DNA of 64,000 bases, taken from contig JAJDVG010000016.1 in the NCBI GenBank assembly GCA_022826245.1, positions 1 to 64,000 on the forward strand, written 5' to 3'. Below, piece by piece: positions 7,199 through 59,236 of the stretch. How positions within the stretch are numbered: position 1 is the stretch's first letter; each line of letters begins with the position of its first letter. Source of the stretch: Gammaproteobacteria bacterium. Lineage in GTDB: Bacteria; Pseudomonadota; Gammaproteobacteria; Steroidobacterales; Rariloculaceae. Under the pieces are notes generated by a model. The model was given only the letters and a program-made list of their open reading frames with translations. It did not search any database and was not told where the DNA came from. The position numbers and the translations under genes were made by a program.

Positions 7199-7601
7199 AG
7201 GCCTCGGGCGGTGCGTTCTTTCCACAAACCGGCCGTAACGTCAAAAAACTGTAATGTTGCCGAACATTTGTCATGTTAAAGTTCTGTTAATGAATGTAAA
7301 CCACTGATTTGTAAATGTTTTATAGTTCTGGCGATTATTACGGCCCGGACAGCGACCGCGCCGAAGCCCAATGGCGCCGCTGGCCGGAGGAAGTTTTCCA
7401 CTGATTTATCCACAAGCAGGTCAGCCCCTGCACGAGGTTCTGCGGAGCGCGAAAACCCTTGAATTTGATGGGCTCGGCGCCAGCCTCGATACGGTCTGTG
7501 GATGCAATGCGCTCGCCAACCGGGTTGCATATCGCGATAATTGTCAGACGATAAGATTACGTCCGGTGAGCACCGCGGACGTCGAAACGAAGAGGCGCAA
7601 G
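7199..7601. other. 403-bp intergenic region with an AT-rich tract and DnaA-box-like motifs
   Basis: No gene is supported. About 7240-7340 is strongly AT-rich against a GC-rich background and contains an AATGTT-N4-AACATT dyad (7253-7268). A perfect 9-mer DnaA box TTATCCACA is at 7406-7414, with near matches CTTTCCACA (7218-7226), TTTTCCACT (7394-7402) and an inverted TGTGGATGC (7497-7505). It probably also holds the promoter of the gene at 7602. I do not call an origin. Confidence 0.5.
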
Positions 7602-8345
7602 ATGATCGATCGATTTGCCACGCAGGTCCGGTTGCCGGCCGCCGCCATTCTCGTGGTGTGGCTTGTCTGCCCGGCAGCCGCTGCGGCTGACGAGCAGCCC
7701 GATTTCACGGGTATCTGGCGAAGCTATCCCGGGGCGCGAACTCAATGGCCCGCGGACCCAGCCCACACCGAGGAAGCCCGAACGAAGATCGATGCCTACC
7801 GGTCGTTGATCGAGGGTACCGGCGCGACGCCGGGCGGATTCTGCGTGGGTACGGGTATGCCGGGCTCGATGCTCGGTTCCGGCGGTTATCCGATGGAGAT
7901 AATCCAGCGCCCGGAGCAGGTCACGATCATCTACGAGGCGCACACCGAACTCAGGCGCGTGTATCTCGACGACCGGGAAGTCGATCCGAACGACCTCATC
8001 CCGACGCGCAACGGGTTTTCGACCGGCCGTTGGGACGGCGATACCCTCGTGGTCGGCACGACCAGCCTCAAGGAAGCCGTCGATCAACGTTCCGCCCACA
8101 GCGACGAGGCGGAAATCGTCGAGCGTTACCGGCTCGGTGAGGACGACGACGGCAATAAGCTGCTGATCGCCGAACTTACGCTGACCGATCCTCGCTTCTA
8201 CGTCGAGCCCGTGACCGTAACCAAGACCTGGGTCGCCGCGGCCCCCGACGCGCGCATGCTGCTCTACGAGTGCACGGAACCGGACTGGGAGGACTATCTG
8301 GAGGACTTGAGAACGCGGGCGGAAGCGCGCAACGACGGGGAGTAG
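7602..8345 (+). CDS. Exported protein with the WDGDTLVV partner domain
   Basis: Function unknown. The 247-aa protein begins with a Sec signal peptide (MIDRFATQVRLPAAAILVVW ending at AAAA/DEQ) and its mature part opens DFTGIWRSY. Near residue 145 comes FSTGRWDGDTLVVGT, a motif shared with five other proteins in this window. The C-terminus has an acidic stretch. I start at ATG 7602, preceded by AGAGG; the frame is open upstream to 7371, but that part has no signal peptide and lies in the intergenic region. The DUF6152 gene follows after 6 nt, so the two are probably co-transcribed. It corresponds to the C-terminal half of the fused protein at 9776. Confidence 0.8.
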   Translation: MIDRFATQVRLPAAAILVVWLVCPAAAAADEQPDFTGIWRSYPGARTQWPADPAHTEEARTKIDAYRSLIEGTGATPGGFCVGTGMPGSMLGSGGYPMEIIQRPEQVTIIYEAHTELRRVYLDDREVDPNDLIPTRNGFSTGRWDGDTLVVGTTSLKEAVDQRSAHSDEAEIVERYRLGEDDDGNKLLIAELTLTDPRFYVEPVTVTKTWVAAAPDARMLLYECTEPDWEDYLEDLRTRAEARNDGE

Positions 8346-8351
8346 TCCGCC

Positions 8352-8738
8352 ATGATCCGGTATCGAATCGATTTCATCGCATGTTGCTGCGCGGTCGCGG
8401 CCGCCGCGGCACTTGCCTTCCTCGCGCCGCCGGCCGGTGCGCACCATTCGGCGATACGCTTCGACCTGTCGATCCGGGATCGCACGGTCACGGGCATCGT
8501 CAAGGAGTTCAGGGCCGCGAACCCGCATACCCGGATCGTGCTCGAGGTTACGGACGAGAAGGGCACGCGCGACATCGAGTACGAGGGCCACAGCCGCAAC
8601 AACTACTTTCGGTCGGGTTGGCGCGTCGGTATGGTCGAGGTCGGCGACACGATCACGTTGACGGCGGCGCCCACCCGAGACGGCAGCGACGGCGGCTACG
8701 CCTTGCGGGTGACCACAGAGGACGGCACGACGTTCTGA
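8352..8738 (+). CDS. DUF6152 family exported protein
   Basis: 128 aa. A signal peptide ends PPAGA at residue 30, followed directly by HHSAIRFD, so the mature N-terminus would be His31-His32. ANPHTRIVLEV has its His at 59, 28 residues after the first His. The rest looks like a small beta-barrel with an N-x-x-R-x-G-W segment (NYFRSGWRVG) also seen in its paralogues. I place it in DUF6152, whose function is not established. It follows the partner-domain gene by 6 nt. A possible copper-binding role is inference from the N-terminal His. Confidence 0.8.
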   Translation: MIRYRIDFIACCCAVAAAAALAFLAPPAGAHHSAIRFDLSIRDRTVTGIVKEFRAANPHTRIVLEVTDEKGTRDIEYEGHSRNNYFRSGWRVGMVEVGDTITLTAAPTRDGSDGGYALRVTTEDGTTF

Positions 8739-9069: not shown

Positions 9070-9216
9070 GGTGCCGTCCGGTGTTCGGGGTGATTCGGCG
9101 ACATCGTACTCGATTCCCGCCCGCCATGCCGCCGATGTGCGTTTCCGGGGCTTTCCGGGCGGTTCGACGACATTCGCGTTTTGCCGGGCGGAGGCCGAAT
9201 TTGCTAGTCTGTGCGG

Positions 9217-9402
9217 TCCCAGGAGCCTGCGCCGTAGGAAGTCGCGAAAGCGAAAATTCGATATCGCCGTCCGTTCGGTCGATCGATTGAGGAAAATATC
9301 GAGTCATATTTGACGAAATCGATCGGCCGAACGGGCGGATGAGAGCGCCAGGTAGAATATTGAACCTGCAGCCGTGAATTCCTGTGGCGCAGGCTCCTGG
9401 GT
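9217..9402 (+). repeat. Long imperfect inverted repeat, probable structured RNA
   Basis: Three nested stems share one axis: 9218-9240 with 9379-9401 (23 pairs), 9267-9288 with 9317-9338 (22 pairs), and 9294-9299 with 9306-9311 around the loop CGAGTC. All four non-Watson-Crick positions in the two long stems are G.U wobbles if the + strand is transcribed, and would be A.C mismatches in the opposite RNA. This supports an RNA transcribed towards the gene at 9432. A miniature mobile element is the alternative. It fills most of the 362-bp gap at 9070-9431, where I see no gene. Confidence 0.6.
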
Positions 9403-9431
9403 CCCGATGCGCGGCCCGACAAGAGAACACC

Positions 9432-9775: not shown

Positions 9776-10918
9776 ATGTCAAGAATCGCAGTCACAGCCT
9801 TTGTTGTCCTTGTCTTTGCAGGCACGGCGTCGGCCCATCACGGTTTCGGCCGCTTCGATCGGACCCGCGAAATCCAGGTCGAGGGGACGGTCACGGGCAT
9901 CGATTTCGTCAATCCGCACGCCTACGTGTACTTCGATGCGGTCGGGCCGGACGGCGAGGTCATCGAGATGCGTTGCGAGATGCGCGCGGCGACCGTGCTG
10001 CGGCGCTCGGGCTGGTCGGCGGAGATGTTCGTCGACGGTACGCACATCGCCATCGACGGCCGCCCGCATCGCGACGATCCGGCTTCATGCTACGTGGAGA
10101 CGCTTGCGCTCGGTGACGACGAGGCGCTTGAGCGCTACCAGCAACTCGACGAAGGCGCCGCTCCGGCAACGAGCGAGAACCGGCCGGCGCGCTTGCCGAG
10201 CGGCGTGCCCAACCTCGCCGGTGAATGGGCTCAGGAACAGTATCTGATGGCTCGGCCGCCCGGAGGCGGCGGCGCGCTCGTACCGCAGAGTCTGCTGGAA
10301 GCCGTCAACGCCGGCGAGGTCGCTCCCGACGACGTGCCCGGATCGGACTGGGGCGCCCGTCCCGTGACGTACACCGAAGCGGGTCAGGCGGCGGCCGACG
10401 AGCTTGCCGCCGCGCCGCCGGGATCCGCCCCGCGACTGCGCTGCGAGATCACGAGCATCCTGTTCGACTGGACCTTCGACGGCCCGATCAACCGCATCAC
10501 GCAAGCCGAGGACACGATCACGATCGAGTACGGCCGGGGCCTGACGCGAACGATCCACATGAACATGGACGAGCAGCCGACGATGATCGTACCGAGCCGC
10601 GGCGGCCATTCCATCGGCCGCTGGGACGGCGATACGCTCGTCGTCGACACGATCGGTTTCGAACCCGGCATTCTTGCGGGATCAGTTCCCCACAGCGGCG
10701 AACTTCATGTCGTTGAGCGATTCACGCTCGATCCGGAGACGATGGCTCTGACGCGCGATTACGTTGCAGAGGACCCGTTGTATTACACCGACGAGTATGT
10801 CGGCTCGGCCATCGTGATGCCTGCCGATGCGCCGTTCGCCGTCGATCCGTGCGAGGAACTCGCTTACGAGTACATTACGGACGGTGGCGCAACGACCGCG
10901 GAGGGCGCGGAACAGTAA
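9776..10918 (+). CDS. DUF6152 plus WDGDTLVV-domain fusion, exported
   Basis: 380 aa. The signal peptide ends TASA at residue 20 and is followed by HHGFGRFD, so the mature chain would start at His21-His22. NPH follows with its His at 48 (27 residues on). The N-terminal DUF6152-like part runs to about residue 115. After a linker the second domain opens PNLAGEWAQEQ and carries GHSIGRWDGDTLVVDTIGF near residues 280-298. It has both halves found as separate genes at 8352 and 7602, which links their functions. The start has GGGGAG upstream. No catalytic motif is recognised. Confidence 0.82.
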   Translation: MSRIAVTAFVVLVFAGTASAHHGFGRFDRTREIQVEGTVTGIDFVNPHAYVYFDAVGPDGEVIEMRCEMRAATVLRRSGWSAEMFVDGTHIAIDGRPHRDDPASCYVETLALGDDEALERYQQLDEGAAPATSENRPARLPSGVPNLAGEWAQEQYLMARPPGGGGALVPQSLLEAVNAGEVAPDDVPGSDWGARPVTYTEAGQAAADELAAAPPGSAPRLRCEITSILFDWTFDGPINRITQAEDTITIEYGRGLTRTIHMNMDEQPTMIVPSRGGHSIGRWDGDTLVVDTIGFEPGILAGSVPHSGELHVVERFTLDPETMALTRDYVAEDPLYYTDEYVGSAIVMPADAPFAVDPCEELAYEYITDGGATTAEGAEQ

Positions 10919-10955: not shown

Positions 10956-11672
10956 TCAGGGCGGCGATGCAGGCTTGCGATGCAAGGCTTGCGCTTCGCG
11001 CAGCCGGCTGAGCTGCGAGTCCGCTTCGAACGCGCGAACGGTGACGGAAATCCGCCGGCCCCGGTAGCGCCTGAAACGCGGCAACTCATGAGTCCACGCG
11101 AGATTCGTCGCCCAGGGCATGACGAATACATCGCCATCGCGCGTTTCGAGGTCGGTGAATCCCTTGCCGCGATACGGGCGCAGTCTGAAGACGCGTTCCT
11201 CGCCCAACGATATCGTCACGATCGGCGCTCCCGCCACGAGGTTCCTGCGGCTGTCGCGATGGGCGCTGATGTAGTGGCCGAGCGCGCCGTCGTACCAGTT
11301 GAGCAGCACGCCGTTGTAGCGGGCGTCGACTGTCGTCCGGGACCAGTCGAGCAGCGGGACGAGCGGCGGCGGGACCGGCAGCGCCGCGCTCTCGGCGCCG
11401 CTGAAGACGTAGTTCCTGCCGTAAGCCTGTTGCCAGCGCGGCGTCCGGACGAGCCGATGATGCACACGGATCTCGTGGTAGTCCGGAGGATGCAGCGACC
11501 AGATCGCCTTGAAGCGTGCGGTGTCGGGGACCAATCGGCCCGGCAGGCGCCCGACAAGAAGGTGATGCCGCTCGTCGAGGTCGATGCGCCTGAAGTCCGC
11601 AGGCCCGTTCAAGGCGCGTTGCGGCGGTCGGATCGAGTCTCGGTCCGCGCCACGCTTGTGCCCAACGGTCAA
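10956..11672 (-). CDS. AlkB-like 2-oxoglutarate/Fe(II) dioxygenase
   Basis: Likely member of the AlkB superfamily, which oxidatively demethylates nucleic acid bases (some members act on protein) using Fe(II) and 2-oxoglutarate. H138-x-D140 (HYISAHRDSRRNL) and H195 (WTHELPRF) form the iron triad, and R207/R213 in RRISVTVR would bind 2-oxoglutarate. ARYNGVLLNWYDG and VTISLGEERVFRLR are AlkB-type blocks. I start at the TTG at 11672, which overlaps the ankyrin stop as TTGA (11669-11672). The frame is open far upstream, but only as the shadow of the ankyrin gene. Length 238 aa. The substrate cannot be told from sequence. Confidence 0.8.
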   Translation of the reverse strand: MTVGHKRGADRDSIRPPQRALNGPADFRRIDLDERHHLLVGRLPGRLVPDTARFKAIWSLHPPDYHEIRVHHRLVRTPRWQQAYGRNYVFSGAESAALPVPPPLVPLLDWSRTTVDARYNGVLLNWYDGALGHYISAHRDSRRNLVAGAPIVTISLGEERVFRLRPYRGKGFTDLETRDGDVFVMPWATNLAWTHELPRFRRYRGRRISVTVRAFEADSQLSRLREAQALHRKPASPP

Positions 11673-13282
11673 GCGCCTTGTTCGCTTGCGATCGTTTCCG
11701 GCTCGGCAAGGTCGCAGTCGGCCTGTTCCCCGCACAGGCGTTCGAGAAGTTCGGCCGTGTCCGCGAAAACCTCGATCGTCGCGCCGCGTCCGTGGCCGCC
11801 GGCGCGGCCGAGCGCCGCGTCGACCGGCGTCAGGCCGTCCGTGTCGGCGACGTCGATCGTCGCGCCGCGTGCCACGAGTTCGACGACGACATCGTTCCAG
11901 CCCCAGAACGCGGCGCCGTAAAGCGCGCCGCGGCCGATACCGCGCGAGCCAGCCCGGCGGGCTGTCGTGCGGGCATTGATGTCGGCGCCCGTATCGAGAA
12001 GCAGCGTTATCGCTTCGATCGATTTCTGCTCGACGTCCGGTGCGAGGTAGTGGGGGATGCCGGGTCCGTAGCCGCGCGTATCGCACTCGACGGAACCGTA
12101 GCCCGCAGCCGCCATGAGCGGCGTGATCCCGCCATCGTTCGGCAATTCGAGAAGTGCGCCGTGGTCGATCAGAAGCTGAATTGCCGCAGTGTCAAACGTC
12201 TTGGCGGCGCGCAGCAGCGGCGTTGCGCCGATCGACAGAACCAGGTCGCAGCCGCGGTCGTCGCCGATGTGCCGCCACAGTGGATGCATCTTGAGTTGCG
12301 GATCGGGGTTCGCGCCCCGTTCCAGAAGCAGTTCGATGATTTCGAGGCTCGAGGTTGAGTCGACGGACGGCCGGTCCGGCCGTCCGCCGCGCGGCAGCGT
12401 GTTGACGTCGACGGCCGAATACAGAGGCGTGCGTCCGAGCCAGTCCCACTTGTTCGGATTCGCCCCGGCTTCGATCAGCAGTTTCGCAACGTCGAAATTG
12501 AAATTGTCGATCGCGAGAAACAGCGGCGTCACGTTTTTCGGATCGGGCAGGTCGATGTCGGCTCCGGCCTCGATGAGCAGCCCTGCGCACTCGACGCAGC
12601 CCGCGCGCGCTGCAAACAGCAGCGGCGTCAGTCCGCCGAACGGCCGGTACATGCGCCGCGGTTCGCCGGTAACCTGGCGGGGCCAGTCGTTGACGGCCGA
12701 GCGCGCGTCGACCTCCGCGCCATGTTCGAGCAGGAGCTCGACCATCGCCGGCTGCCGCTGCGCGGCTGCCCACATCAGTGCGGTCTGGCTGCGCCAGGAT
12801 TCCCGCGCGTTGACGTTCGCGCCGCGCTCGATCAGCAGACGCGCGGCGGCGACGCGATTCGAGCGCGCAAGCACCATGAGGGCGGTCTGACCGTCGGCGC
12901 CCGGTGCATCCATCTCGGCGCCTGCGTCGAGCAGGCTCGCAATGACGGCGGCGTTGCCGACGACCGCGGCTTCCGCGAGCGGCGTTGAGCCATAGTCGTT
13001 GGCGGCATTGGCGTCGGCGCCGGCGGCGAGGAGCCGGTCGACGAGCGCGAGCTTGTCGTGGTAGACGGCCCAGTGCAGCGCCGTGGTGCCGTCGCTTGCG
13101 GGCGTTGCGACATCGACGCCCTGGTCGATCGCCGCAAGCGCAGCCGCGACCTCGTTACCGCTTGCCGCCTCGATGAGTGCCGTGTCAGCGTGCGCCGAAG
13201 CGCTCGCGATGCCGAGCACGGCCAGCGCAGCCACGGCCCCGATCCACAGCCGTGTTCGCGCTGCGCGTCCTGAGACGCCCAC
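11669..13282 (-). CDS. Exported ankyrin-repeat protein
   Basis: 537 aa: an N-terminal signal peptide (WIGAVAALAVLGIASASAHA) followed by roughly ten ankyrin repeats, recognisable by recurring DG-x-TAL-x-x-A and LLL-x-x-GA-[DN]-x-[ND] elements, ending in an acidic tail. Ankyrin repeats mediate protein contacts, and the signal places this one in the periplasm. It starts at GTG 13282, 3 nt after the DUF1552 stop, and ends overlapping the AlkB-like start, so it is inside an operon. The specific partner is unknown; an ankyrin protein next to DUF1552/DUF1592 genes is a combination I associate with other bacteria. Confidence 0.85.
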   Translation of the reverse strand: MGVSGRAARTRLWIGAVAALAVLGIASASAHADTALIEAASGNEVAAALAAIDQGVDVATPASDGTTALHWAVYHDKLALVDRLLAAGADANAANDYGSTPLAEAAVVGNAAVIASLLDAGAEMDAPGADGQTALMVLARSNRVAAARLLIERGANVNARESWRSQTALMWAAAQRQPAMVELLLEHGAEVDARSAVNDWPRQVTGEPRRMYRPFGGLTPLLFAARAGCVECAGLLIEAGADIDLPDPKNVTPLFLAIDNFNFDVAKLLIEAGANPNKWDWLGRTPLYSAVDVNTLPRGGRPDRPSVDSTSSLEIIELLLERGANPDPQLKMHPLWRHIGDDRGCDLVLSIGATPLLRAAKTFDTAAIQLLIDHGALLELPNDGGITPLMAAAGYGSVECDTRGYGPGIPHYLAPDVEQKSIEAITLLLDTGADINARTTARRAGSRGIGRGALYGAAFWGWNDVVVELVARGATIDVADTDGLTPVDAALGRAGGHGRGATIEVFADTAELLERLCGEQADCDLAEPETIASEQGA

Positions 13283-13285
13283 GAC

Positions 13286-14632
13286 TCACACTTCCGTCAG
13301 TTCGCCGCTGCTGTCGCCGACCGACTCGGCCGGCACTCCGGCCCGCTTGAGCAGCGTCAGCAGCAGGTTTGCAAGCGGAGTTCGATCGGGATAACGCAAG
13401 TGCCGATTGCCCTCGATCGTGCCGGAGCCGCGGCCGGCGATCAGGGTCGGCAACGGGAAGTTATTGTGCGAGTTGCTGTTGCTCATGTTGCTGCCGTAGA
13501 GCAGGATCGAATTGTCGAGGATGGAGCCGCCGTCGCCGTCGGGTATCGCGGCGAGCTTCGCAAGGAAGTCCGCGAAGACCTGAGAGTGGTAGCGCTGGAC
13601 GACGACGAGCTTCTCCATGGAGCCCTTGTTCTCCGCGTGGTGCGACAGCGGGTGGAACGCGTCCGGGATGCCGACGTGCGTGTATGGCTGGTTGCTGACT
13701 TCGGCGGCGAGCATGATGCTCACGATCCGCGTCATGTTCGCCTGAAACGCGGCGACGACGAGGTCGTGCATGAGACGGATGAGATCGTCGAAGTCGGGCC
13801 GGGCCACCGGGATCTCGGGCAGCGCCACCGCCGACAGGTCGCGTTGTCCGAGCAACTCGATACGTCGTTCGATCTCACGGACGCTCTCGAGGTAGTCGTC
13901 GACCAGAATCCTGTCGGCGGGACCAAGCTTGCGCTTGAGGTCCGCAGCTTCGCCCGCGACCATGTCGAGCAGGCTGCGGTAATCGTTTGCGACCTCGCTT
14001 CTTTGCTCCGGCGTCTTGCCGCGGCCGAAAATCTTCTCGAACGCCTTGCGCGGCTCGTATTCCATCGGCATCGGCGTCGTCGGGGCGCGAAAGGAGATCG
14101 TCCTGCCGTAGCTGCAGCCGTAGGTCCCGTCACAGGCCGCTCCGCCGCCTTCCTCTTCGGTGGCAAGCTCGAGCGACGGGAGCGGCGTGTCCTGACCGAT
14201 GTGCGCGGCGGCGATCTGGTCGACCGTAACGCCGGCAAACGGTGCGTGGCTCTGCCGGGGATGCTCGCAGGACAACCAGGTCGCGGGCACGATGGCGTGC
14301 ACGGCCGAGCTTTCGGCAGGCTTGTTGCCCAGGCCGCTGACGACGGTCAGATGGTCCCGGTGCGGCGCCAGCGGCTCGAGGATGGGTTTGAAGTCGAAAT
14401 CGCGGCCTTCGATGTCGGGCGTCCAGCGGTTCATTTCGGCGCCGAAGCGCGTGTTGTCCATGATCGCGCCGTGGGGCAGGTAGAAGAACCCCATGCGCGG
14501 TCTCGGCGCCGCGGCCGTCTGAGCGAGCGCCGTCGCCGCCGGCACCATGGCGCTCAGCAACGGCAGCCCGATGCTTGCGCCGCCGGCTTGCAACAGCGTC
14601 CGCCGCGACAGGTGCTTCTTCGTGATGAACAT
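13286..14632 (-). CDS. DUF1552 family Tat-exported protein
   Basis: 448 aa. The N-terminus has a twin-arginine signal (KHLSRRTLLQAGGASIGLPL), then PRPRMGFFYLPHGAIMDN and later SVREIERRIELLG and NNFPLPTLIAGRG, features of the DUF1552 family related to DUF1501-type, sulfatase-like exported proteins. The activity is not established. It lies 2 nt downstream of the DUF1592 gene with GGGGAG before its ATG. DUF1592 and DUF1552 are usually neighbours and are thought to act together on an exported substrate, which is inference. Confidence 0.87.
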   Translation of the reverse strand: MFITKKHLSRRTLLQAGGASIGLPLLSAMVPAATALAQTAAAPRPRMGFFYLPHGAIMDNTRFGAEMNRWTPDIEGRDFDFKPILEPLAPHRDHLTVVSGLGNKPAESSAVHAIVPATWLSCEHPRQSHAPFAGVTVDQIAAAHIGQDTPLPSLELATEEEGGGAACDGTYGCSYGRTISFRAPTTPMPMEYEPRKAFEKIFGRGKTPEQRSEVANDYRSLLDMVAGEAADLKRKLGPADRILVDDYLESVREIERRIELLGQRDLSAVALPEIPVARPDFDDLIRLMHDLVVAAFQANMTRIVSIMLAAEVSNQPYTHVGIPDAFHPLSHHAENKGSMEKLVVVQRYHSQVFADFLAKLAAIPDGDGGSILDNSILLYGSNMSNSNSHNNFPLPTLIAGRGSGTIEGNRHLRYPDRTPLANLLLTLLKRAGVPAESVGDSSGELTEV

Positions 14633-14634
14633 GT

Positions 14635-17103
14635 TCAGTCTCCCCGAGCCTGCAGCGCGTCTTCCGCATCCGGTTCCGGGACAGCGCGCATCCGGAAAGC
14701 CTCGCTCCGGGCTATTCCCAGGACGAGGGAGTCGAAACTATAGCCTGCTGCCGCCGCGTCGGCCACGATCGCACGCACGCTCGGCATGTCGTAGTACTCA
14801 AGCCCCCGTCCCAGCGCGTAGGTCATGAGCTTCTCCGCCAGCGCCTGAACGAAAAGTTCGGGTTCCGCCGTCAACGCGCGGCGCAACTCTTCCGGATCGT
14901 TGACCGGCATGCCGCCGGCCAGTGTGCCGCTTGAGTCGATGGGCAGGCCGTTGTCCCGCTCATGCGTTCGCCATTCGCCGATCACGTTGAAGTTCTCCAG
15001 TGCCTGGCCGAGCGGATCGATGACGCCGTGGCAGTGGTTGCACGAAGGTTCCGTACGGTGGCGTGCGAGGCGTTCGCGCACGGTGCGCGGGATGTCGCCG
15101 GGGGCCGGCGTCAGGTCGGTCTCGACCCCGGCGGGAACCGAGGCCGGCGGCGTCGCGAGGATGTGCTCCATGATCCACGCTCCGCGCAAGACCGGCGATG
15201 TGCGATCGGGATAGGACGTCACCATCAGGATGCTGGCCTTGCCGAACAGCCCGAAGCGCCGCGAATCCGCGAGTTCGACGCGCCGGAAGCGGTCGCCGCG
15301 AACCGTGTCGATGCCGTAATGGCGCGCGAGTCGCTCGTTGACGAAGGTGTGGTTCGCCGTGAGCAGGTCGAGCACACTGCGTTCCTCGCGCAGAATGCTG
15401 TCGAGGAACAGCGCCATTTCTTCCCGGAAGGCGCTGCGCAGGTCTTCGTCGAAATTCGGATAGAGCCGGGGATCCGGATCGATCATCTCGACCCGTCGCA
15501 CCGCAAGCCACTGGAACGCGAAGTTGGTCACGAGCGAACTCGAGCGCCGGTCCGCCAGCATGCGTCCGGCCTGCGCCTCGAGCACATCGGGGTCGCCGAG
15601 CCGGCCTTGTTCGGCGAGTTCGAGCAGCGTCTCGTCGGGGCCCTGGCTCCAGATGAAGAAAGCGAGCCGCCAGGCGAGCTCGAGATCGCTGACGGCGTAG
15701 GCGCTGGCGGCGTCAGGCCCTGCCGGGGCGTCGCCGGGCTCGGCGCGGTAAAGGAACTTGGTGCTTGCGAGCAAGGCCATGACGCCTTTCTGGATGCCCG
15801 CCTCGAAGTCTCCGTCGTTGCGCCCCGCATCGTAGAAACCGAGCAGCGGATCGATGTCGGCAGCGTCGACGGGGCGGCGAAAGGCCCGGGTGGCGAGGTT
15901 CGCGAATATCTCCCGCGCGCACGGCCGCTCGGCGCCCTGTTCGCGCGGGTAGCAGACGAAAATACGGTCGCGGCTGACGGTCGATTCGCCGATACCGGTC
16001 GCGTTATAGGGTCCGATGATCTCAAGCCCGTAGAGCCTCGGCACGTCGGGGACGCCTTCGCCCGGGGTCAGCGATTGCAGCAGATAGTCGCCCTCGGCCA
16101 GGCTGCGGGCGATGAAGCTTGCCGCCACGTTGCGCTGGCCGGCCTTGACGCTCACGCGGATGTTCCTGAAGCGGTCCCTGATCCGCTCGACGCCCTGGAT
16201 CTGTTCCTGATCGAGCGTTCGCGAGTCTTCCTCGCCGCCGATGAAGTCCTCGAACACCTTGATCCCGTCGATCGTGACGACGAGCCGATGGCGATATTCG
16301 AGCCAGCCGTAGGGATAACCGCGCAGTTCCGCGCCGGGTATCGATGAGATGTTGAGGCTGATGTCGTACTCGCCGTCGGCCGGAAAGTAGTGCCCGACTG
16401 CCAGCCCGCCGCGCGTGCCGAGCGGCAGTCCGGCGACGTGCATGGTCCGGTTCTCGCGCTCGGAACGATAGTACGCCCGGGTGAGTTCGGGCACGGCTTC
16501 ACCGACGGCGCGGATGCTGATGTCGCGCGCGGCCGCGAGGTACTGGTCGAGGTGGGTCGGCGATACGCCGAGCACTTCGGCGATATTGTCGAAGCCTTCG
16601 CTCGCGATGTCGTTCGGCAGCAGCGCCGCGGCGTCGATCCGGAATCCGAACAGATCCTCGATCGCTCGCGCGTACTCGGTGCGGTTCAGCCGGTGCGGCG
16701 AGACGTGGCCGGGCATCGGGCCGCGTATCGCGGCAGCGGCGTCGAGCGCATCGCCGAGCGATGCGACGAAAGCATCGACACGTTCGGCATCGGGCCGCGG
16801 ACCGCCCGGCGGCGGCATGAGGTCGCCGCGCAGCTTGCGCACGACTTTCTCCCAGGTTTCGGGATCGGCGGCGATGTCCGCGGGCTCCGCCGCATCGAAC
16901 GAGAACTCGGCCGCGTATTCGGTATCGTTGTGGCAGTCCGCGCAGTAGCCGTCCAGGATCGGCCAGTGGGCGGCGAGGGCGGCTTCAGGCGGGATATCGC
17001 GTTGCGCGCAGGCGGCAAGCAGTGCGCAGCCGACAACGGCCGCGGCGGTGCGCAAGGGGTGCACCCGCGAGCGCTTCGGAACGCGGCGCCTAAAGCGAGT
17101 CAC
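14635..17103 (-). CDS. DUF1592-type cytochrome-like lipoprotein (DUF1587/1595/1592/1588/1585)
   Basis: 822 aa. A lipobox (CALLAAC) predicts a lipoprotein. A haem-type CADCH motif lies soon after, at about residue 54. It is followed by the family's domain series: DUF1587 (HRLNRTEYARAIEDLFG), DUF1595, DUF1592 (ASTKFLYR, then DLELAWRLAFFIWSQGPD), DUF1588 (FGLFGKASILMVTSYPDRTSPVLRG and a second CNHCHG), and DUF1585 near the end. Such proteins are described as planctomycete-type cytochrome c relatives; the reaction is unknown. It starts at a GTG that overlaps the end of the hydrolase gene by 14 nt. It is probably co-transcribed with DUF1552 and ankyrin. Confidence 0.88.
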   Translation of the reverse strand: MTRFRRRVPKRSRVHPLRTAAAVVGCALLAACAQRDIPPEAALAAHWPILDGYCADCHNDTEYAAEFSFDAAEPADIAADPETWEKVVRKLRGDLMPPPGGPRPDAERVDAFVASLGDALDAAAAIRGPMPGHVSPHRLNRTEYARAIEDLFGFRIDAAALLPNDIASEGFDNIAEVLGVSPTHLDQYLAAARDISIRAVGEAVPELTRAYYRSERENRTMHVAGLPLGTRGGLAVGHYFPADGEYDISLNISSIPGAELRGYPYGWLEYRHRLVVTIDGIKVFEDFIGGEEDSRTLDQEQIQGVERIRDRFRNIRVSVKAGQRNVAASFIARSLAEGDYLLQSLTPGEGVPDVPRLYGLEIIGPYNATGIGESTVSRDRIFVCYPREQGAERPCAREIFANLATRAFRRPVDAADIDPLLGFYDAGRNDGDFEAGIQKGVMALLASTKFLYRAEPGDAPAGPDAASAYAVSDLELAWRLAFFIWSQGPDETLLELAEQGRLGDPDVLEAQAGRMLADRRSSSLVTNFAFQWLAVRRVEMIDPDPRLYPNFDEDLRSAFREEMALFLDSILREERSVLDLLTANHTFVNERLARHYGIDTVRGDRFRRVELADSRRFGLFGKASILMVTSYPDRTSPVLRGAWIMEHILATPPASVPAGVETDLTPAPGDIPRTVRERLARHRTEPSCNHCHGVIDPLGQALENFNVIGEWRTHERDNGLPIDSSGTLAGGMPVNDPEELRRALTAEPELFVQALAEKLMTYALGRGLEYYDMPSVRAIVADAAAAGYSFDSLVLGIARSEAFRMRAVPEPDAEDALQARGD

Positions 17104-18173: not shown

Positions 18174-19742
18174 ATGATGACTGACGAATCGAAAAACCTC
18201 GATCGCCGCTCGTTCATGGGCGGCGTGCTCGGCGCGACCGCCGGCGTGGGCGCCGCCGCATTGTTGGCCGACAGGGCGACTGCGCAACAGCCCGACGCGC
18301 CGCCGGACGAGGAACTGCGTCCATCGATGCGGCGCCCGACGAGGCTCTACAAGCTCGAGGCCACGATCCACGATTGCGAGGTCGACGGAACCGTGCCGTC
18401 GGACCTGAACGGCGCGTTCTACCGGGTCGGTCCGGACGCGCAATATCCGCTTGCGCCGGGCAACATTCCGTTCGACGGCGAAGGCCATGTCAGCATGTTC
18501 CGCATCAGGGACGGCCGAGTCGACTACCGCAGCCGTTTCGTCAGGAACGATCGCTGGCTCGCGCAGAACGAGGCCGGCAGGATCCTGTTTCCGATGTACC
18601 GGAACCCGTCGATGGACGATCCGAGCGTCGCGGGCCTGAGCCGCAGCACGGCCAATACCCACATCATCAATCACAGGAACCTGTTGCTCGCGCTCAAGGA
18701 AGACAGTCCGCCGTCGGCGCTCGACCTGCTCACGCTCGAGACGCTCGTGCCGAACTACACGTTCGACGATCAGTTGCCGAGCAGGACGTTCACGGCGCAC
18801 CCGAAGATCGATTCGGAGACCGGCAACATGGTCGCTTTCGGCTACGAGGCGGAAGGCCACGGCAGCCGCGTCGTATCCATGTTCGAGATCACGCCCGCGG
18901 GCGAACTGGTCTGGGATGCCAAGATCGAAGTGCCTTACGTCGGCATGCTCCACGACTTCGCCGTCACGCGGAACCACATCGTGTTCTACGTGATACCGCT
19001 CGCCTTTGACCAGGCGCAGATGGACCGCGGCGGGATTCACTGGTCCTGGGACGCGACGAAGCCGACGTATTTCGGTTTCGTGCGCCGCGGCGGCGACGGC
19101 TCCGACATTCGCTGGATCGAGGGGCCGACGCGCAGCGCCACCCACGTCATGGGCGCCTTCGACGACGGCAACGAGCTCTACGTCGACGTCGAGATGTCGA
19201 TGTCGAATCCGTTTCCCTTCATGCCCATGCGCGACGGCGCCCCATGGAATCCGATCGCGGGTTCAAGCCATATCACGCGGCTTTCGGTCGATCTCTCCGG
19301 GAGCCGGCCGAGCAACTACGGGATCGAGCAGCTTTATCCGCACGTTGGCGCCTTGCCGCGGCAGGACGATCGCTACAACACCGTGCCTTACCGCTACGGC
19401 TTCCTCGGCTGTCCGAACCCGCGCGCGAACGATCCGCGCAACGCCGGGGCCTGCTACACGCGCTTCGATCACCAGACCCGCACCGATACGCTGTTCGATT
19501 TCGGTCCGAACACTTCGCTCGCCGAGTGCTGTTTCGCGCCGCGCAGCGCCGATGCGCGCGAAGGGGAGGGCTACCTCATGGGGCTCGCGACGCGCATCGA
19601 CGAGAACGGCCGCGGGGATCTCGTGATCCTCGACGCCGAGCACCTGGCCGACGGGCCGGTCGCGACCGTCAAGCTGCCGATGCGCGCGGTGGGTCAGGTG
19701 CATGGCTGGTGGGTGCCGGAGGCACAGCTTCCGAGCGCCTAG
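18174..19742 (+). CDS. Exported carotenoid oxygenase family protein
   Basis: 522 aa non-haem iron enzyme of the carotenoid/stilbene cleavage (RPE65-like) family, which splits C=C bonds with O2. The four iron His ligands are recognisable in FTAHPKID, MLHDFAVT, THVMGAFDDGN and VHGWWVPE. LNGAFYRVGPD and FDGEGHVSMFRI are family blocks near the N-terminus. It also has a Tat-type signal (DRRSFMGGVLGATAGVG... ATAQ), so it should work outside the cytoplasm, unusual for this family. AGGA precedes ATG ATG; the second Met (18177) is equally possible. The substrate could be a carotenoid, stilbene or lignin-derived compound; the sequence does not decide. Confidence 0.92.
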   Translation: MMTDESKNLDRRSFMGGVLGATAGVGAAALLADRATAQQPDAPPDEELRPSMRRPTRLYKLEATIHDCEVDGTVPSDLNGAFYRVGPDAQYPLAPGNIPFDGEGHVSMFRIRDGRVDYRSRFVRNDRWLAQNEAGRILFPMYRNPSMDDPSVAGLSRSTANTHIINHRNLLLALKEDSPPSALDLLTLETLVPNYTFDDQLPSRTFTAHPKIDSETGNMVAFGYEAEGHGSRVVSMFEITPAGELVWDAKIEVPYVGMLHDFAVTRNHIVFYVIPLAFDQAQMDRGGIHWSWDATKPTYFGFVRRGGDGSDIRWIEGPTRSATHVMGAFDDGNELYVDVEMSMSNPFPFMPMRDGAPWNPIAGSSHITRLSVDLSGSRPSNYGIEQLYPHVGALPRQDDRYNTVPYRYGFLGCPNPRANDPRNAGACYTRFDHQTRTDTLFDFGPNTSLAECCFAPRSADAREGEGYLMGLATRIDENGRGDLVILDAEHLADGPVATVKLPMRAVGQVHGWWVPEAQLPSA

Positions 19743-19921: not shown

Positions 19922-21019
19922 TTACAGGGGCGGGCTGGCCGTTGAGCCGTCGACGCAGTCGTAGGCGCTGACCGTGAGGTCAGGCCGCCAGACGAAATAG
20001 CGTGTCAGGTCGAATGGTTCGGCGAAGGTCACCGGGTCATCGATCGTGATGCGGTAGTCCATGCGCTCGCCGTCGGCGCTCGGCATGAAGCGTTCCACGA
20101 CTCGGATGTCTTCGCTCTGGCGAACTCCGTCCGGCGAAAAGATTTCTGCCTGCATGTGCGTCGTCTCGACGACGAGCGCGTCGCCGTCCCAGCTTCCGGT
20201 CGAGAAGCCGAGGAAGCTGGGTTCGCCCGGCGGCGACGCTGCGCCCATGTGAATACGCCGCACGGCATCGTCTTCCTCCATGCGGATCACGATATCGTCG
20301 CCGTCGCGAATGAACTCGATCGGGTATGGCGTGATCATGATGTATGGCATGGCCTTCAGCGTGCAGTCGTTGAGCGCGGCGCTTGCCGCATCCCACTGCG
20401 CGAGCGTCGCCCGCCCGGCCTCCGTCAGCGGATAGCCGCCCTTGTACATCGGAAAGGCCGCGGGATCGTCGAGGACCGTGCCCCAGACGCGAAACACGCC
20501 CACGGCGCTCTCGCGAGCCGCCGCCGCGGTCTGCTCATCGAAAGCCGGCGCGATGAGTTCACCCGTCCCGGCGTCGGTCCAGCGCGGCGCGACGCCGATC
20601 GACAGCAGGATCTCCCGGCCGTCCGCAAGCAGCAACTGCCGCCCGTAAATTCCCGTGTCGTTGCGAATGGCGGCATCGCCGGCCAGCCGGATGCGGTCGC
20701 CGACCTGCACGAGGTCCGGATCGACGCCGCGCGTGCGCAACACGCTGACGCTGCCGGTCTCGACATCCCAAATGTCACTCGCTCCGGATTCGTCGGTGAC
20801 TTCGACGCGCATTCGCCCGTGCGGGTTGAACCACGACACTTCCGTGACGACGCCTTCGATCTCGATGGTCCGGTCCGGGTAATAGAATCCGGCGAAGGAG
20901 TGGTGCGCGCCGGCAACGGCGGGCAGCGCGAGAACGATCAGCGCCGCGGTGCGCGGAAACCGGGCGAACCGGCCGGATATTGCAGTATCGGTTTGTTGGC
21001 TGTGCGGTAGCTTGGTCAT
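19922..21019 (-). CDS. DUF6152 plus WDGD-domain fusion, exported
   Basis: 365 aa. The signal peptide ends AVAGA at residue 38, followed by HHSFAGFYYPD, so the mature N-terminus would be His39-His40. WFNPHGRM has its His at 67, 28 residues on. The second domain carries FSTGSWDGDALVVETTHMQ, then VVERF, and ends with a Cys-containing YDCVDG segment like the other members. The ATG at 21019 has AGGGGAA upstream; in-frame codons up to 21097 lack support. It stands alone, convergent with the carotenoid oxygenase and divergent from hflK. Confidence 0.83.
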   Translation of the reverse strand: MTKLPHSQQTDTAISGRFARFPRTAALIVLALPAVAGAHHSFAGFYYPDRTIEIEGVVTEVSWFNPHGRMRVEVTDESGASDIWDVETGSVSVLRTRGVDPDLVQVGDRIRLAGDAAIRNDTGIYGRQLLLADGREILLSIGVAPRWTDAGTGELIAPAFDEQTAAAARESAVGVFRVWGTVLDDPAAFPMYKGGYPLTEAGRATLAQWDAASAALNDCTLKAMPYIMITPYPIEFIRDGDDIVIRMEEDDAVRRIHMGAASPPGEPSFLGFSTGSWDGDALVVETTHMQAEIFSPDGVRQSEDIRVVERFMPSADGERMDYRITIDDPVTFAEPFDLTRYFVWRPDLTVSAYDCVDGSTASPPL

Positions 21020-21266
21020 GATGGTTCCCCTAGCGACAGGTACCAGCTCGGCTCGATTGTAAGCGCTCATTTGTTGTCCTGTCCCCGCCGTGCGCACCCG
21101 AGATGCGGGCGGCGGGCTTCACAGCGCCGCGCCGAGGGCGCAGAATGGTCGCGGTAGCAGGGCCGCGTGTCCGCAATGAGCGCGGCAATCCCCCGTACGC
21201 AAAGGTCGCGGCCGTGGTTTCGGTGGCCTGCGTGTTCACGGGAACACACCCCAAGGGAAAACAACC

Positions 21267-26207: not shown

Positions 26208-27326
26208 ATGATCGACAGAAAACTTGGTGGTTCAGTGGCTTCGTCGTGCATGGTTGTCGCCGGCGTGGCAGTCCTTTTCACCGCGCCTGACGTCGCACGG
26301 GCACAGGGCAATGGCGGGGCCGGAGGCGCCGAATGCGTCCCGCTCGCGGAGCAGTATCCCGATCTCGGCACGCCGCAGAGCGTGTCGGCGAACCGCGAGT
26401 TCACGACAGTCTGGGGCTCGTTCGAGCTGCCGGGCGGTCCGTGCGGTTACGCATCGGCCGAGGAGCACTACAACGCGCTGCTCGAGGATGCACAGAGCCG
26501 CGGCGGCCCGTCCGAGCACACGATGGCAACCCTGCCGGACTGGAGCGGACACTGGGGTACGGAAAACTCGACGGGCGAGATCACGATCGTCGGTCGGCAC
26601 TCCACGCTCGAGGGCATGGCCGTGCGGCTGACTCCGGAAGCGCGCGAGGTCTTCCAGCGCGACTACGAGATGTGGAGAGAGGATCACGCGATCGACCCGT
26701 TGTCGTTCTGCCTGCCGCCGAATTTCCCGCGCTGGTTCACCGAGTACGGCTACAGGGAACATTTTCTCGCGCCCGACAAGACCGTGCTCGGCAGCGAGAT
26801 GGTCAACCAGTTCAGGCGGGTATTCACCGATGGTCGGCCGCATCCCAGCGAGGAGTGGCTCACTAACGAATGGCTCGGCTATTCGATCGGATTCTGGGAT
26901 GAAGACGTCCTGACGATCTGGACCAAGGGCATCAAGGAAGGCATTCTGCAGCGCAACATGCCGCGCCAGACGAACCGGATGGAAGTCATCGAGCGCTGGC
27001 GCAAGGTCGATCCGGTAGCGGCCGGCGTCGAATTGGCGCTCGACACCTTCGGTTCGGATCACATACCCACCGAGCGTATCGAAGTCGAAGTCACGATGTA
27101 CGACCCGACATTCGTCGAGCCGTGGCACACGGTCGCCGCGCTCTACAAGGAAGACGACCGCACGCCCGAGGCCAAGGAACGGATCTGGCCGCACCAGTGG
27201 GACTGCGTCGAAGGTTCCCAGTGGTTCATTACCGAGGAGGGCGTCGTCAGCCAGTATGCGCCCGGCGAGAAGCCCGCGCTGACGAACCCGGATTTCTGGT
27301 TCGACGAAGACTACGTTCACCAGTAG
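26208..27326 (+). CDS. Exported protein with a diverged WDGD-type domain
   Basis: 372 aa. The signal peptide runs to VARA near residue 33. The mature chain includes PDWSGHWGTENSTG at about 105-118, equivalent to the F-x-G-x-W opening of the partner domain. LGYSIGFWDEDVLTIWTKG near residue 225 is the same motif with Glu for Gly. It has no N-terminal HH and no NPH, so only one half of the DUF6152 pair is present, with a different N-terminal half. It ends near DCVEGSQWF, similar to the Cys-Val-[DE]-G close of the protein at 19922. Function unknown. GGTGA lies before the ATG. Confidence 0.78.
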   Translation: MIDRKLGGSVASSCMVVAGVAVLFTAPDVARAQGNGGAGGAECVPLAEQYPDLGTPQSVSANREFTTVWGSFELPGGPCGYASAEEHYNALLEDAQSRGGPSEHTMATLPDWSGHWGTENSTGEITIVGRHSTLEGMAVRLTPEAREVFQRDYEMWREDHAIDPLSFCLPPNFPRWFTEYGYREHFLAPDKTVLGSEMVNQFRRVFTDGRPHPSEEWLTNEWLGYSIGFWDEDVLTIWTKGIKEGILQRNMPRQTNRMEVIERWRKVDPVAAGVELALDTFGSDHIPTERIEVEVTMYDPTFVEPWHTVAALYKEDDRTPEAKERIWPHQWDCVEGSQWFITEEGVVSQYAPGEKPALTNPDFWFDEDYVHQ

Positions 27327-28706: not shown

Positions 28707-29525
28707 TCAGGGCACGATCGGGCTGCTTCGGTCGATCGACGACGCTTCGCCGCCGACCATGAGTTCGTGTGCGTAGTTGGCTTCCTGGCAGATGTACTCA
28801 AAAAGCTCCGTGCCTTCTTCCCAATTGAGATCGAAGCCGCCCGTCCACGGCGCCGTGTAGGCGCCCGGGTCCTCAATGGTGACACGGTACTCGATCGTCG
28901 AGGCGTCGACGCGCGTCAGCCGCTCTATCGTGTGCAGTTGTTCCGTGTGCGGCAGGCCGCGGCGTTCGAACCAGAAGTCCTCGTTGAACCCGATGCTGTC
29001 GATGACCAGCGTGTCGCCCTCCCACCAGCCGATCGAATGGCCGTAGTTGGTCGGGCTCGGGTTCGTGGGGTGCGAACGCCCGTCCATGTAGACGGTGCGG
29101 TAGGTGTGCGGCCCGCCGATGTCGAAGATGTAGAGGCGCTTGACTTCGGGCAGTTCGAGGATTTCGACGCCGTAGGGCGTCAGGAACTGGCGCGAAATGC
29201 CCGACGCCTTGCAGCGCGCATGCGGCTCGAGTTCGTGAATCTGGCGGGCGTCGTACAGGGCGCGCGCCCAGGGCTTGAACGGTATCTGGTCGGCCGGCGC
29301 AATCGGGTCGAAAATGCCGAACATGGGCTCCCAGACGCCCTTCTCGTCGGCCGTGGCGCCCGACAGCATGACCTTGCCGTCCGCCGTGCGCGGCACGGGT
29401 CCGGGCGGGGGCGAATCCGGATCGCGCTCACGCCGCTGGGCGGCGGCCCAGTCAACGGGCAACGCAGTCGCGAGCAGCGCCGCGGCGGCGATCAGCGTCA
29501 GGCAGCGTCGTCCCGGCATGGTCAT
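28707..29525 (-). CDS. Exported protein with the WDGDTLVV partner domain
   Basis: 272 aa with its own signal peptide (RRCLTLIAAAALLATALPVD ending WAAAQ). YGHSIGWWEGDTLVIDSIGF with NEDFWFERRGLPHTEQLHTI is nearly the same as the equivalent segment of the fused protein at 30036 (NEDFWFTSGGLPHTDRLRLI), so this is the detached second domain. The YIFDIGGPHTYRTVYMDGRSHP segment precedes it. The start overlaps the stop of the DUF6152 gene (ATGA at 29522-29525), so the two are almost certainly made together. The activity is unknown. A few residues at the extreme N-terminus (ATG 29525 or 29519) are uncertain. Confidence 0.84.
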   Translation of the reverse strand: MTMPGRRCLTLIAAAALLATALPVDWAAAQRRERDPDSPPPGPVPRTADGKVMLSGATADEKGVWEPMFGIFDPIAPADQIPFKPWARALYDARQIHELEPHARCKASGISRQFLTPYGVEILELPEVKRLYIFDIGGPHTYRTVYMDGRSHPTNPSPTNYGHSIGWWEGDTLVIDSIGFNEDFWFERRGLPHTEQLHTIERLTRVDASTIEYRVTIEDPGAYTAPWTGGFDLNWEEGTELFEYICQEANYAHELMVGGEASSIDRSSPIVP

Positions 29526-29938
29526 TCGCCGCCCTGGCGGCTCGAATTCGCATCGAGCGTCTCGCCCGGTCGCCCGCCGGTCGCCGTAAGCGTCACGGAC
29601 CGCGCGTTGAGACGGTTGCTGCCGTTGCGCGCAAGGAAACCGTCAACGGTGACCTCTTCGCCAATCTGCAGCGAATTGCGCCGCCAGCCTCGGCGTTGCA
29701 GCCCGTGTGGCGGGCCCATTTCGGCGCCCCAGTTGACGACTTCGCCCGAATCCTCGTCCCGGACGTTGATATAGAACCAGACATGCGGGTTGGTCCACTC
29801 GACGTTCGTGACGATACCGGTCAGCGTTACCGGCTGATTGCTGTCGAATTCCGCGGAGAACGAATGATGCGCAATTCCTTGCGCTCCCATCAACAGCGCG
29901 CCCGCGGAAAATACTCCGGCAAGAACATTTACTTTCAT
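29522..29938 (-). CDS. DUF6152 family exported protein
   Basis: 138 aa. The signal peptide ends AQGIA at residue 23, followed by HHSFSAEFD, so the mature N-terminus would be His24-His25. WTNPHVWFYINV has its His at 52, 28 residues on. Further family blocks are VVNWGAEMGPPHGLQRRGW and DGFLARNGSNRLNARSVTL. This is the most typical single-domain DUF6152 protein in the window. It is paired by ATGA overlap with the separate second-domain gene. No function is known for the family; copper binding through the N-terminal His is my inference. Confidence 0.88.
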   Translation of the reverse strand: MKVNVLAGVFSAGALLMGAQGIAHHSFSAEFDSNQPVTLTGIVTNVEWTNPHVWFYINVRDEDSGEVVNWGAEMGPPHGLQRRGWRRNSLQIGEEVTVDGFLARNGSNRLNARSVTLTATGGRPGETLDANSSRQGGE

Positions 29939-30035: not shown

Positions 30036-31169
30036 TCAGGGCCTGTTGTGCTGGCAAAGGTGGAACGGCAATTCGGCGCCGCCGACCCAGCGCAGCATCC
30101 AGGTGCTCGTCCACGGTCTCGTGTAGGTGCCGTCGTCCTCGATCGTGACCTCGTATTCGAGCGTTTCCAGGTCGATCCGCGTGAACCGTTCGATGAGCCT
30201 GAGACGGTCCGTATGCGGCAGGCCGCCGCTCGTGAACCAGAAGTCCTCATTGAAGCCGCGCGTGTCGACGACGAGCGTATCGCCGTCCCAGGAGCCGACC
30301 GAGCGGCCGTAGTAGAGCGGATTGTCGTCGTCGCCGCCGACCTGCCCCACGTGTTCGCGGCCGTCGAGATAGATGATCCGGTAGTTGCGGTTTCCGCTGC
30401 CGATCAGGACGAAGACGCGTTCGCTGTCGCGATCCTCGATGAGCTGAAAGCCCAGATGCGACAGATACTGGCGCGGGCCGCCGGGCGGCTTGCAGTTCAG
30501 ATACATCGGATCGTCCCTGAGGGAACGTTCCTGGCGATGTCGGTAGAGCGCAAGCGCCCAGGGCTGCATCGGCGCGACGCGAGCCGCATCGTCGAGGTCC
30601 TCAAGCATGCCGCTTGCGTCCATTGCGACATCGACGCCGTCCTCGACGAGCACCGTTGCGCTCGGGTAGCCCCAATAGCCGTTTATGGATTCGGCCGTCC
30701 CGCCGAGCGCCGGTTGTCCGTCGGGCCAGCGCGGCGTCGGCCGGGGCGCGAGAGGCGGCGGCGGCGGCTCGTTCGATACCCGAAAGACCGCGCTGCCACT
30801 GTCGCTGCGTAACACGGAGTCGCCCCAGATCTGGCGCGTGCCGTCGCGCGCGGTAATCCCGCTGACCGTGATCGCGTCTCCGGGCAGCACGGTGGCCTGC
30901 GACCAGCCGTTCGCCTCGAGGTCGATCGGACTCTCGAGTTCGACCGCCCAGTTCAGTACCTCGTCGCCGTCGCTCACGTTCATGAAGACGTGCGTGTGCG
31001 GATTGCGCCAATCGACGTATGTCACGATGCCGTTCAGCGTGAGGGCCGCGTCGGGGTCGAACTTGCCGTGAATGGGGTGGTGCGCTACGGCTGCGCTGGA
31101 CGCGAGCGCGAACAGCGCGGTCGCAGTCATTGTCGCCGTGCGGCGAGAATTCGTGTCGGCATTTCTCAT
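30036..31169 (-). CDS. DUF6152 plus WDGDTLVV-domain fusion, exported
   Basis: 377 aa. The signal peptide ends SSAAVA at residue 29, followed by HHPIHGKFD, so the mature N-terminus would be His30-His31. WRNPHTHVFMNV has its His at 58, 28 residues on. A Pro-rich linker (EPPPPPLAPRPTPRWPDG) joins the second domain, which has NGYWGYPS and YGRSVGSWDGDTLVVDTRGF. The start ATG 31169 is preceded by AGGAGC; the frame extends to 31226 without support. It lies between the small secreted gene at 31201 and the split DUF6152 pair, so a fused and a split version of the same two domains sit side by side. Confidence 0.85.
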   Translation of the reverse strand: MRNADTNSRRTATMTATALFALASSAAVAHHPIHGKFDPDAALTLNGIVTYVDWRNPHTHVFMNVSDGDEVLNWAVELESPIDLEANGWSQATVLPGDAITVSGITARDGTRQIWGDSVLRSDSGSAVFRVSNEPPPPPLAPRPTPRWPDGQPALGGTAESINGYWGYPSATVLVEDGVDVAMDASGMLEDLDDAARVAPMQPWALALYRHRQERSLRDDPMYLNCKPPGGPRQYLSHLGFQLIEDRDSERVFVLIGSGNRNYRIIYLDGREHVGQVGGDDDNPLYYGRSVGSWDGDTLVVDTRGFNEDFWFTSGGLPHTDRLRLIERFTRIDLETLEYEVTIEDDGTYTRPWTSTWMLRWVGGAELPFHLCQHNRP

Positions 31170-31200
31170 TGGAAGCTCCTGCGGGTCGAAACCACGCCGG

Positions 31201-31602
31201 CTACTGCCGGCGAATCTCGAACGCACCGCCGCCGCTGTCGTGCTGCCAAGAGCCGGTGATGTAGCGGTTCGGCAACTCGAGGTCCCCGATCGTGCCCTCG
31301 ATCACGTAACTGACGGTGCCGCCGTCGCGGTTTTCGGCGTCGGCCTCGATGCGCACGCTCCAAGCCTCCGGATCGAGCGTCGCCGCGTCGATCTCGATGT
31401 TGTCCGTGCCGGGGTTGATGATGCCCGAGACCCGCTCACCGTCCCAGTCGAGCACGACGAGCACGAATTCGCCGTGGGTCTCGTTGGACTCCCAGGTTCC
31501 GATCCACGAACCCTTGAGCGGATGGCCTTCCTGCGCGGTCGCAGCCCCGGCCACGCCGAGTACGAGCAGCGCACAGACGAGCCTCCACGTCGATATCCGC
31601 AT
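31201..31602 (-). CDS. Small secreted beta-rich protein, function unknown
   Basis: 133 aa with a clear signal peptide (TWRLVCALLVLGVAGAATAQ). The mature chain starts EGHPLKGSWIGTWESNETHG, followed by alternating beta-strand-like stretches (FVLVVLDWDGERVSGIINPG, YITGSWQHDSGGGAFEIRRQ), which suggests a small lipocalin-like or avidin-like barrel. I do not recognise a named family. AGGAGA precedes the ATG. It is 31 nt upstream of the DUF6152 fusion on the same strand, so probably in the same operon. Confidence 0.75.
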   Translation of the reverse strand: MRISTWRLVCALLVLGVAGAATAQEGHPLKGSWIGTWESNETHGEFVLVVLDWDGERVSGIINPGTDNIEIDAATLDPEAWSVRIEADAENRDGGTVSYVIEGTIGDLELPNRYITGSWQHDSGGGAFEIRRQ

Positions 31603-34849: not shown

Positions 34850-34895
34850 CGTGGGTTCTCCGGTTCGATTCATGGCGCTTGGGGTGCCCGTGGCT

Positions 34896-34921
34896 CGCCC
34901 CGCCGGTTCGCTGGCGGGGCG
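34896..34921. terminator. Strong hairpin between the tandem dehydrogenase genes
   Basis: Perfect 9-bp GC stem (34896-34904 with 34913-34921), extended inward by a G.T pair and a G-C pair to close a TTCG loop as read on the + strand. It lies 45 nt beyond the stop of the upstream dehydrogenase in the direction of transcription. There is no U-run on the minus strand. It could reduce read-through or protect the upstream message. Confidence 0.45.
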
Positions 34922-34965
34922 CTTGATGTGACTTCAGCGGCGCGACCGGGCACCCGCTCGGTTGC

Positions 34966-59116: not shown

Positions 59117-59236
59117 GAGCGTCGTCGCAGGACACACGGTGCAGGCTTCTGGCGCGGCATCAAGAGACCGATGGAGACTGACGCTGCACGTGGCCTATTG
59201 TCTCGCCCGACGCGCTCATCGACACTTGCACGTAGA

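Follow-up and report, generated by a model that had tools for sequence, protein, structure and literature searches.

DUF6152, a secreted protein family with three invariant histidines and about a hundred copies per genome in one gammaproteobacterial family, is probably an unrecognised metal-binding family

Copper histidine-brace proteins such as LPMO, CopC, PmoB and X325/Bim1 are secreted beta-sandwich or cupredoxin proteins in which removal of the signal peptide exposes an N-terminal histidine, and a second invariant histidine is found further along the chain (PMC10952591). In 2025, additional N-terminal-His families lacking an assigned function, some of them encoded beside permeases, were described to bind nickel or copper (PMC12537917). 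These include DUF4198, DUF6702 and the anglerases Ang-1 and Ang-2, which are beta-sandwich proteins with a His1 conserved at 65-100% after cleavage and with further histidine ligands that follow 17-31 residues later (His18; His28 and His32). Ang is tied to a membrane permease. For DUF4198 and DUF6702, catalytic activity is low or absent (PMC12537917). The signal-strapping screen reported in that study rejects a histidine at position 2 as a co-ligand on steric grounds, and 2.6% of the mature proteins in the training set of SignalP start with histidine (PMC12537917). Periplasmic N-terminal-His proteins are also found beside, or fused to, small multi-TM proteins, as in the CopC-CopD and YcnI-YcnJ pairs.

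DUF6152 (PF19649; here D) resembles both groups in carrying an export signal whose removal would expose an N-terminal histidine, followed by another invariant histidine at a distance comparable to that of the further ligands in the 2025 families. Just as Ang is tied to its permease, D is tied to a 4-TM-looking protein, termed T, which is not HupE. D is nevertheless distinct from the histidine-brace and the 2025 N-terminal-His families in its predicted OB fold, in its equally invariant His2, and in its pairing either with T or with a second domain, termed C, that has no Pfam family. DUF6152 is not named among the families of PMC12537917, and its exclusion by a screen that rejects His at position 2 may explain why it was overlooked. 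In line with a first-pass annotation of the DNA studied here, which named no established function, no paper naming DUF6152 or DUF6644 (the family nearest to T) was found in the literature searched.

The window, i.e., the whole 64,000-nt stretch of DNA that was analysed, belongs to a 3.6 Mb genome (96.5% complete) of the genus Candidatus Rariloculus, order Ca. Rariloculales, Gammaproteobacteria. It contains five D domains, all at the places given in the first-pass annotation, and each of them has a C partner, either fused (three cases) or adjacent (two cases). The single-domain D at 8352..8738 (+; 128 aa) has a predicted signal peptide at 8352-8441, the His-His (HH) of the predicted mature start at 8442-8447 and the codon of the third His at 8526-8528. 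Its C partner lies immediately upstream in the same orientation (7566..8345, +), with a calycin-like barrel domain at 7644-8288, an uncertain start codon (7371 or 7566), and a score of 157 (E 2e-47) against the C profile built in this analysis. The second single-domain D, at 29522..29938 (-; 138 aa), has its predicted mature start (HHSFSAEFD) from 29869 downwards, and the end of its gene shares 4 bases with the gene of a 272-aa C protein carrying its own signal peptide (28707..29525, -; C domain 28773-29342). The three D-C fusions are located at 9776..10918 (+; DUF6152 domain 9836-10081 with HH at 9836-9841, C domain 10154-10867), at 19922..21097 (-; DUF6152 domain 20657-20905, C domain 19943-20584, first His codon 20905-20903, probable start codon 21019) and at 30036..31226 (-; DUF6152 domain 30837-31082, C domain 30042-30758, first His codon 31082-31080, possible start codon 31130). 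A further C-domain protein lacks an adjacent D (26250..27326, +; C domain 26400-27218; score 125, E 2e-37 with the same profile). The proteins at 8352, 9776, 19922, 29522 and 30036 match PF19649 with E-values of 6e-18, 2e-19, 3e-16, 9e-29 and 6e-20, respectively, and their scores of 59.6-99.9 bits all exceed the Pfam gathering cut-off of 27 bits.

The spacing between the first His and that of an Asn-Pro-His (NPH) motif, reported in the first-pass annotation as 28, 27, 28, 28 and 28 residues for these five proteins, was identical when re-measured. That annotation had made its suggestion of a copper site dependent on the retention of HH and the NPH His across the family, and their loss was observed in 0 of 285 distinct homologous domains, a set drawn from relatives as well as from Acidobacteriota and remote proteobacteria. 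Each of H1, H2 and the third His occurs in 285/285, and no other position is invariant there; P28 reaches 99.6%, W47 95%, N27 94% and E50 93%. The motif itself proved less strict than had been proposed, as its Asn can be replaced by R, S, A, M or G. Likewise, the spacing is 27 or 28 in 266 of the 285 domains, but spans 26-33 overall. An alignment of the 91 copies of the source genome (mean column identity 34%) contains only four invariant columns, H1, H2, H29 and G70, while G18, P28, G42, E50 and G61 are conserved in at least 90% of copies. The shared pattern goes well past anything that chance would produce. HH and NPH are kept even in the most distant homologues, which score 30-49 bits against the profile of the own family. 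Circularity of the search was considered as a source of this invariance and ruled out with a profile of the C-terminal 71 positions, which lies past the third His and is blind to HH and NPH. Run on the entire genome, this profile recovered exactly the set of 91 copies found before, with none added or lost, and HH...H was found upstream of 360/360 of its matches in the fetched loci. The invariance is thus not a search artefact.

In all five window proteins, a hydrophobic N-terminal segment ends in a small residue immediately preceding HH (PPAGA, GTASA, AVAGA, AQGIA and SAAVA, in the order given above). Cleavage was scored with the generic (-3,-1) preferences of signal peptidase I. Family-wide, the residue at -1 is Ala in 265 of 285 domains and otherwise S, G, T, P or V, and the (-3,-1) rule is obeyed exactly before HH in 98.6%, compared to 58% or less at any upstream offset. 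As far as sequence can show, these features agree with the placement of the signal-peptide end by the first-pass annotation. Signal peptidase therefore likely cleaves directly before HH and exposes an N-terminal His, since invariant residues would be unexpected within a discarded signal. A second permissive site exists five residues later, between HHSFA and AEF, where the rule is obeyed in 86% of members, and a crude predictor working on one sequence at a time placed the cut at HH in 164 of the 285 proteins, at +5 in 24 and at -5 in 29. Cleavage elsewhere would mean that HH is not the mature N-terminus and that D has no histidine brace; alternatively, the signal might stay uncleaved, with HH as an internal His-His site. 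Given the near-universal agreement with the rule at HH and the complete conservation of H1 and H2, we regard both variants as very unlikely.

The fold of D was predicted with AlphaFold2 for the mature 29522 protein, using the 91-copy alignment (pLDDT 94.9, pTM 0.85). The model consists of the elements H(4-7) E(8-25) E(30-37) E(44-50) H(54-59) E(72-80) E(86-94), i.e., the order E-E-E-H-E-E with the helix between beta3 and beta4 that is characteristic of an OB fold, and Foldseek and VIA-align place residues 10-99 closest to the OB folds of PriB/SSB (Z 10.4, 2.2 A, 82 residues, 23% identity). These are cytoplasmic nucleic-acid binders, and the shared fold implies no function for D. Couplings between residues (Neff 210) link b1-b4, b2-b3, b4-b5, b1-b2 and b3-b5, which fits the five-strand OB order 1-2-3-5-4-1. 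D is thus confidently predicted to be an OB fold, and not an Ig-like or other beta-sandwich as in the LPMO, CopC and DUF4198 scaffolds. For the analogy to the brace drawn in the first-pass annotation, the conserved N-terminal His and the further His hold, whereas the scaffold is predicted to differ and His2 is an additional invariant residue. The HH tip is predicted to be ordered, as residues 1-10 have a mean pLDDT of 92. Residues 4-6 are coupled with the first residues of beta5 (86-88), two strands away from His29, and the beta2-beta3 coupling register would place Glu50 opposite residue 31, on the face of His29. These two observations make a cluster of His1, His29 and Glu50 plausible; as an acidic, nearly invariant residue that probably shares this face, Glu50 is reminiscent of the Asp of X325. 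Couplings between H1 and H29 obtained by mfDCA were discarded as an artefact of invariant columns. CusF, a copper carrier, is likewise a small periplasmic OB-fold protein, but binds Cu(I) via Met, His and Trp of the barrel and not via the N-terminus. It was absent among the matches listed for the D structure, which says nothing against a shared fold, and a PDB search returned no convincing sequence relative for D and none for C.

The expansion of the family, along with the invariance of His2 and the partners C and T, goes beyond the first-pass annotation. The source genome carries 91 copies, and the 2.9 Mb genome of Candidatus Rariloculus versatilis has 76 matches. D is present in each of the 17 further genomes that were sampled from this bacterial family, with 4 to at least 117 copies, and five of these relatives have at least 117. 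The bacterial family has multiplied DUF6152 to about a hundred copies, which, with a fixed set of three His and a barrel partner that diversified alongside, is a very large expansion for a secreted domain. No D was found in the 11 genomes representing other families of the order, and D occurs only sporadically beyond, in 6 of 274 genomes of a class sample and, mostly as a single copy, in 42 of 398 genomes of a phylum sample (source genome counted in both). Sampling the phylum to which an Acidobacteriota relative belongs gave 12 positive genomes out of 149 (relative counted), and copy numbers reach 86 in an Acidobacteria MAG and 62 in a MAG of Terriglobia. The paralogues of the source genome are old, as judged from a median identity of 48% to the nearest paralogue and a mean pairwise identity of 32%.

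Most of these copies are associated with C. In the source genome, 25 of the 89 called D genes are fused to C and 50 of the other 64 have C adjacent, defined as on the same strand within 300 bp, which gives 75 of 89. In loci of other organisms, C is fused to 4 of 80 D and adjacent to 68 of the 76 single D, mostly upstream (72 of 80 in total). The source genome encodes at least 110 copies of C, and none was found in the three single-copy-D genomes tested. The invariant positions of C are two Cys, which likely form a disulfide, G132 and D189, and there is no conserved His. The C model (pLDDT 87.6) is closest to calycin barrels (FABP, NanoLuc; VIA Z 9.0, rmsd 3.0 A, 115 residues), a moderate match with a best Foldseek E of only 0.017. 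Distances between D sequences correlate with those between their C partners, both for adjacent pairs (Mantel r 0.48, null maximum 0.18) and for fused pairs (Mantel r 0.71, null maximum 0.25); C has co-diversified with D.

The second partner, T, matches DUF6644 as its nearest profile and was adjacent or fused to D in all of the 20 distant D loci that were examined. There are 1-12 T genes in each of the 13 genomes tested from the family, with five in the source genome, and T was found in 0 of 7 order mates without D. One genome joins all three partners in a single 570-aa D-C-T fusion protein (L297 5566-7410, G833). The source genome also has, besides 90 other D, one D-T pair of a distant HHGW type (HHGWSGQSG..., C9:94033-94851, L073/L314). 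An identity of T with CopD (PF05425) was considered and rejected, as the profile match goes to DUF6644 and hhalign of T against CopD gave a probability of 0.9% (E 0.06); CopD had no match in the source genome. The D-T pair thus differs in its membrane partner from CopC-CopD and YcnI-YcnJ. Among 105 neighbours of D in the source genome and 95 in single-copy genomes, no metal gene family was recurrent. The sole metal-type neighbour, one DUF411 protein in 1 of 20 loci, is not counted as evidence. Operon neighbours in the source genome include PQQ dehydrogenases, a P450, esterases and a tannase, with no dominant family.

Taken from sequence, these features suggest that DUF6152 is probably an unrecognised metal-binding, possibly copper-binding, protein family. 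In the proposed mechanism, signal peptidase cleavage of the secreted, small OB-fold D would expose the N-terminal His, and the alpha-amine and ring of His1 would form a transition-metal site with His29 at the tip of the beta1-beta2 loop, probably joined by His2 and the near-invariant Glu50. Copper would be the most likely metal, and a strict copper histidine brace can be put forward as a hypothesis. Where a single-copy D lies beside T, as in most D-bearing proteobacteria, the arrangement is like the CopC-CopD or anglerase-HupE pairs, and by this analogy D would most likely capture or pass on metal. In the Rariloculaceae and some Acidobacteriota, D has multiplied to tens to more than 100 divergent copies, which for the most part are fused to C or paired with it, and D-C may act on many small hydrophobic molecules in the periplasm by metal-dependent chemistry, with C as a possible diversified periplasmic enzyme. 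About a hundred copies with a fixed putative metal site and a variable partner of the ligand-binding type would fit chemistry better than metal homeostasis. We lean slightly towards this proposal as a whole, i.e., a His-tipped OB-fold metal site acting as a carrier with T and in metal-dependent chemistry with C. Against the proposal count the invariance of His2, which no described histidine brace requires and which PMC12537917 rejects as a co-ligand, neighbours that are not metal genes, the profile assignment of T, the permissive site at +5, and the lack of a conserved His in C.

It is possible, though somewhat doubtful, that D everywhere acts solely as a carrier or sequesterase of metal in the periplasm, similar to CopC, YcnI or the anglerases, and would deliver metal held at His1/His29 to T or to clients, with C as an accessory or scaffold and no catalysis. 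The D-T pairs of distant single-copy genomes, the D-C-T fusion, the co-occurrence of T with D and its lack in the seven D-less order mates, and the weak or missing catalysis of DUF4198 and DUF6702, which share a similar N-terminal design (PMC12537917), all point in this direction. However, some 91 divergent copies per 3.6 Mb, mostly without T, are hard to understand as metal supply, and C is a ligand-binding type of barrel that diversified together with D. A reading in which the three His do not bind metal at all, and instead serve a structural role or offer C or T a docking patch or an acid-base site, appears unlikely. The proposed metal binding is read from the sequence, the invariance of His2 is unusual in a brace, and the neighbouring genes carry no metal signature; yet all three His are retained even where T is the sole partner and C is missing, a His at the mature N-terminus is rare (see above), and invariance at a chain end is hard to explain structurally.

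If the metal-site proposal holds, DUF6152 would gain a function class, namely N-terminal-His metalloproteins on an OB scaffold, the described ones being beta-sandwich or cupredoxin proteins. A more specific and rather improbable extension is that D-C pairs are secreted metal (copper) oxygenases or peroxygenases, in which the OB subunit would provide the chemistry and the lipocalin-like subunit the substrate pocket; the roughly hundred variants per genome would then represent a periplasmic counterpart of a P450 repertoire. The chemistry of D can be tested on one small soluble protein.

Several other genes of the window are recorded here as separate observations. A protein of the RPE65/carotenoid-oxygenase family with an apparent twin-arginine signal (RRSF) is encoded at 18174-19742 and adjoins a D-C fusion gene and a gene for a secreted metallo-beta-lactamase-fold protein. 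A pair of PQQ-dependent dehydrogenase genes in tandem (33071-36732) appears to be a duplication, their mature starts being nearly identical (QESDFIPVTDEMVQNPDP). A DUF1552 (HXXSHH) gene lies beside a cytochrome c-like multidomain gene with DUF1587/1588/1585/1592/1595 (13286-17064), both without function by record, and a secreted ankyrin-repeat gene is located alongside (11669-13234). A vanadium-haloperoxidase-like protein (VCPO second domain; 61193-63100) follows two FG-GAP/ASPIC-type proteins (57434-61063). Finally, an intergenic palindrome of about 190 bp is present at 9215-9404, with arms at 9215-9246/9373-9404 and inner arms at 9267-9299/9306-9338. None was found in the other genera tested, and 42, 23 and 63 full or partial matches are dispersed in three genomes of the genus, so that the palindrome is like a MITE or REP element.
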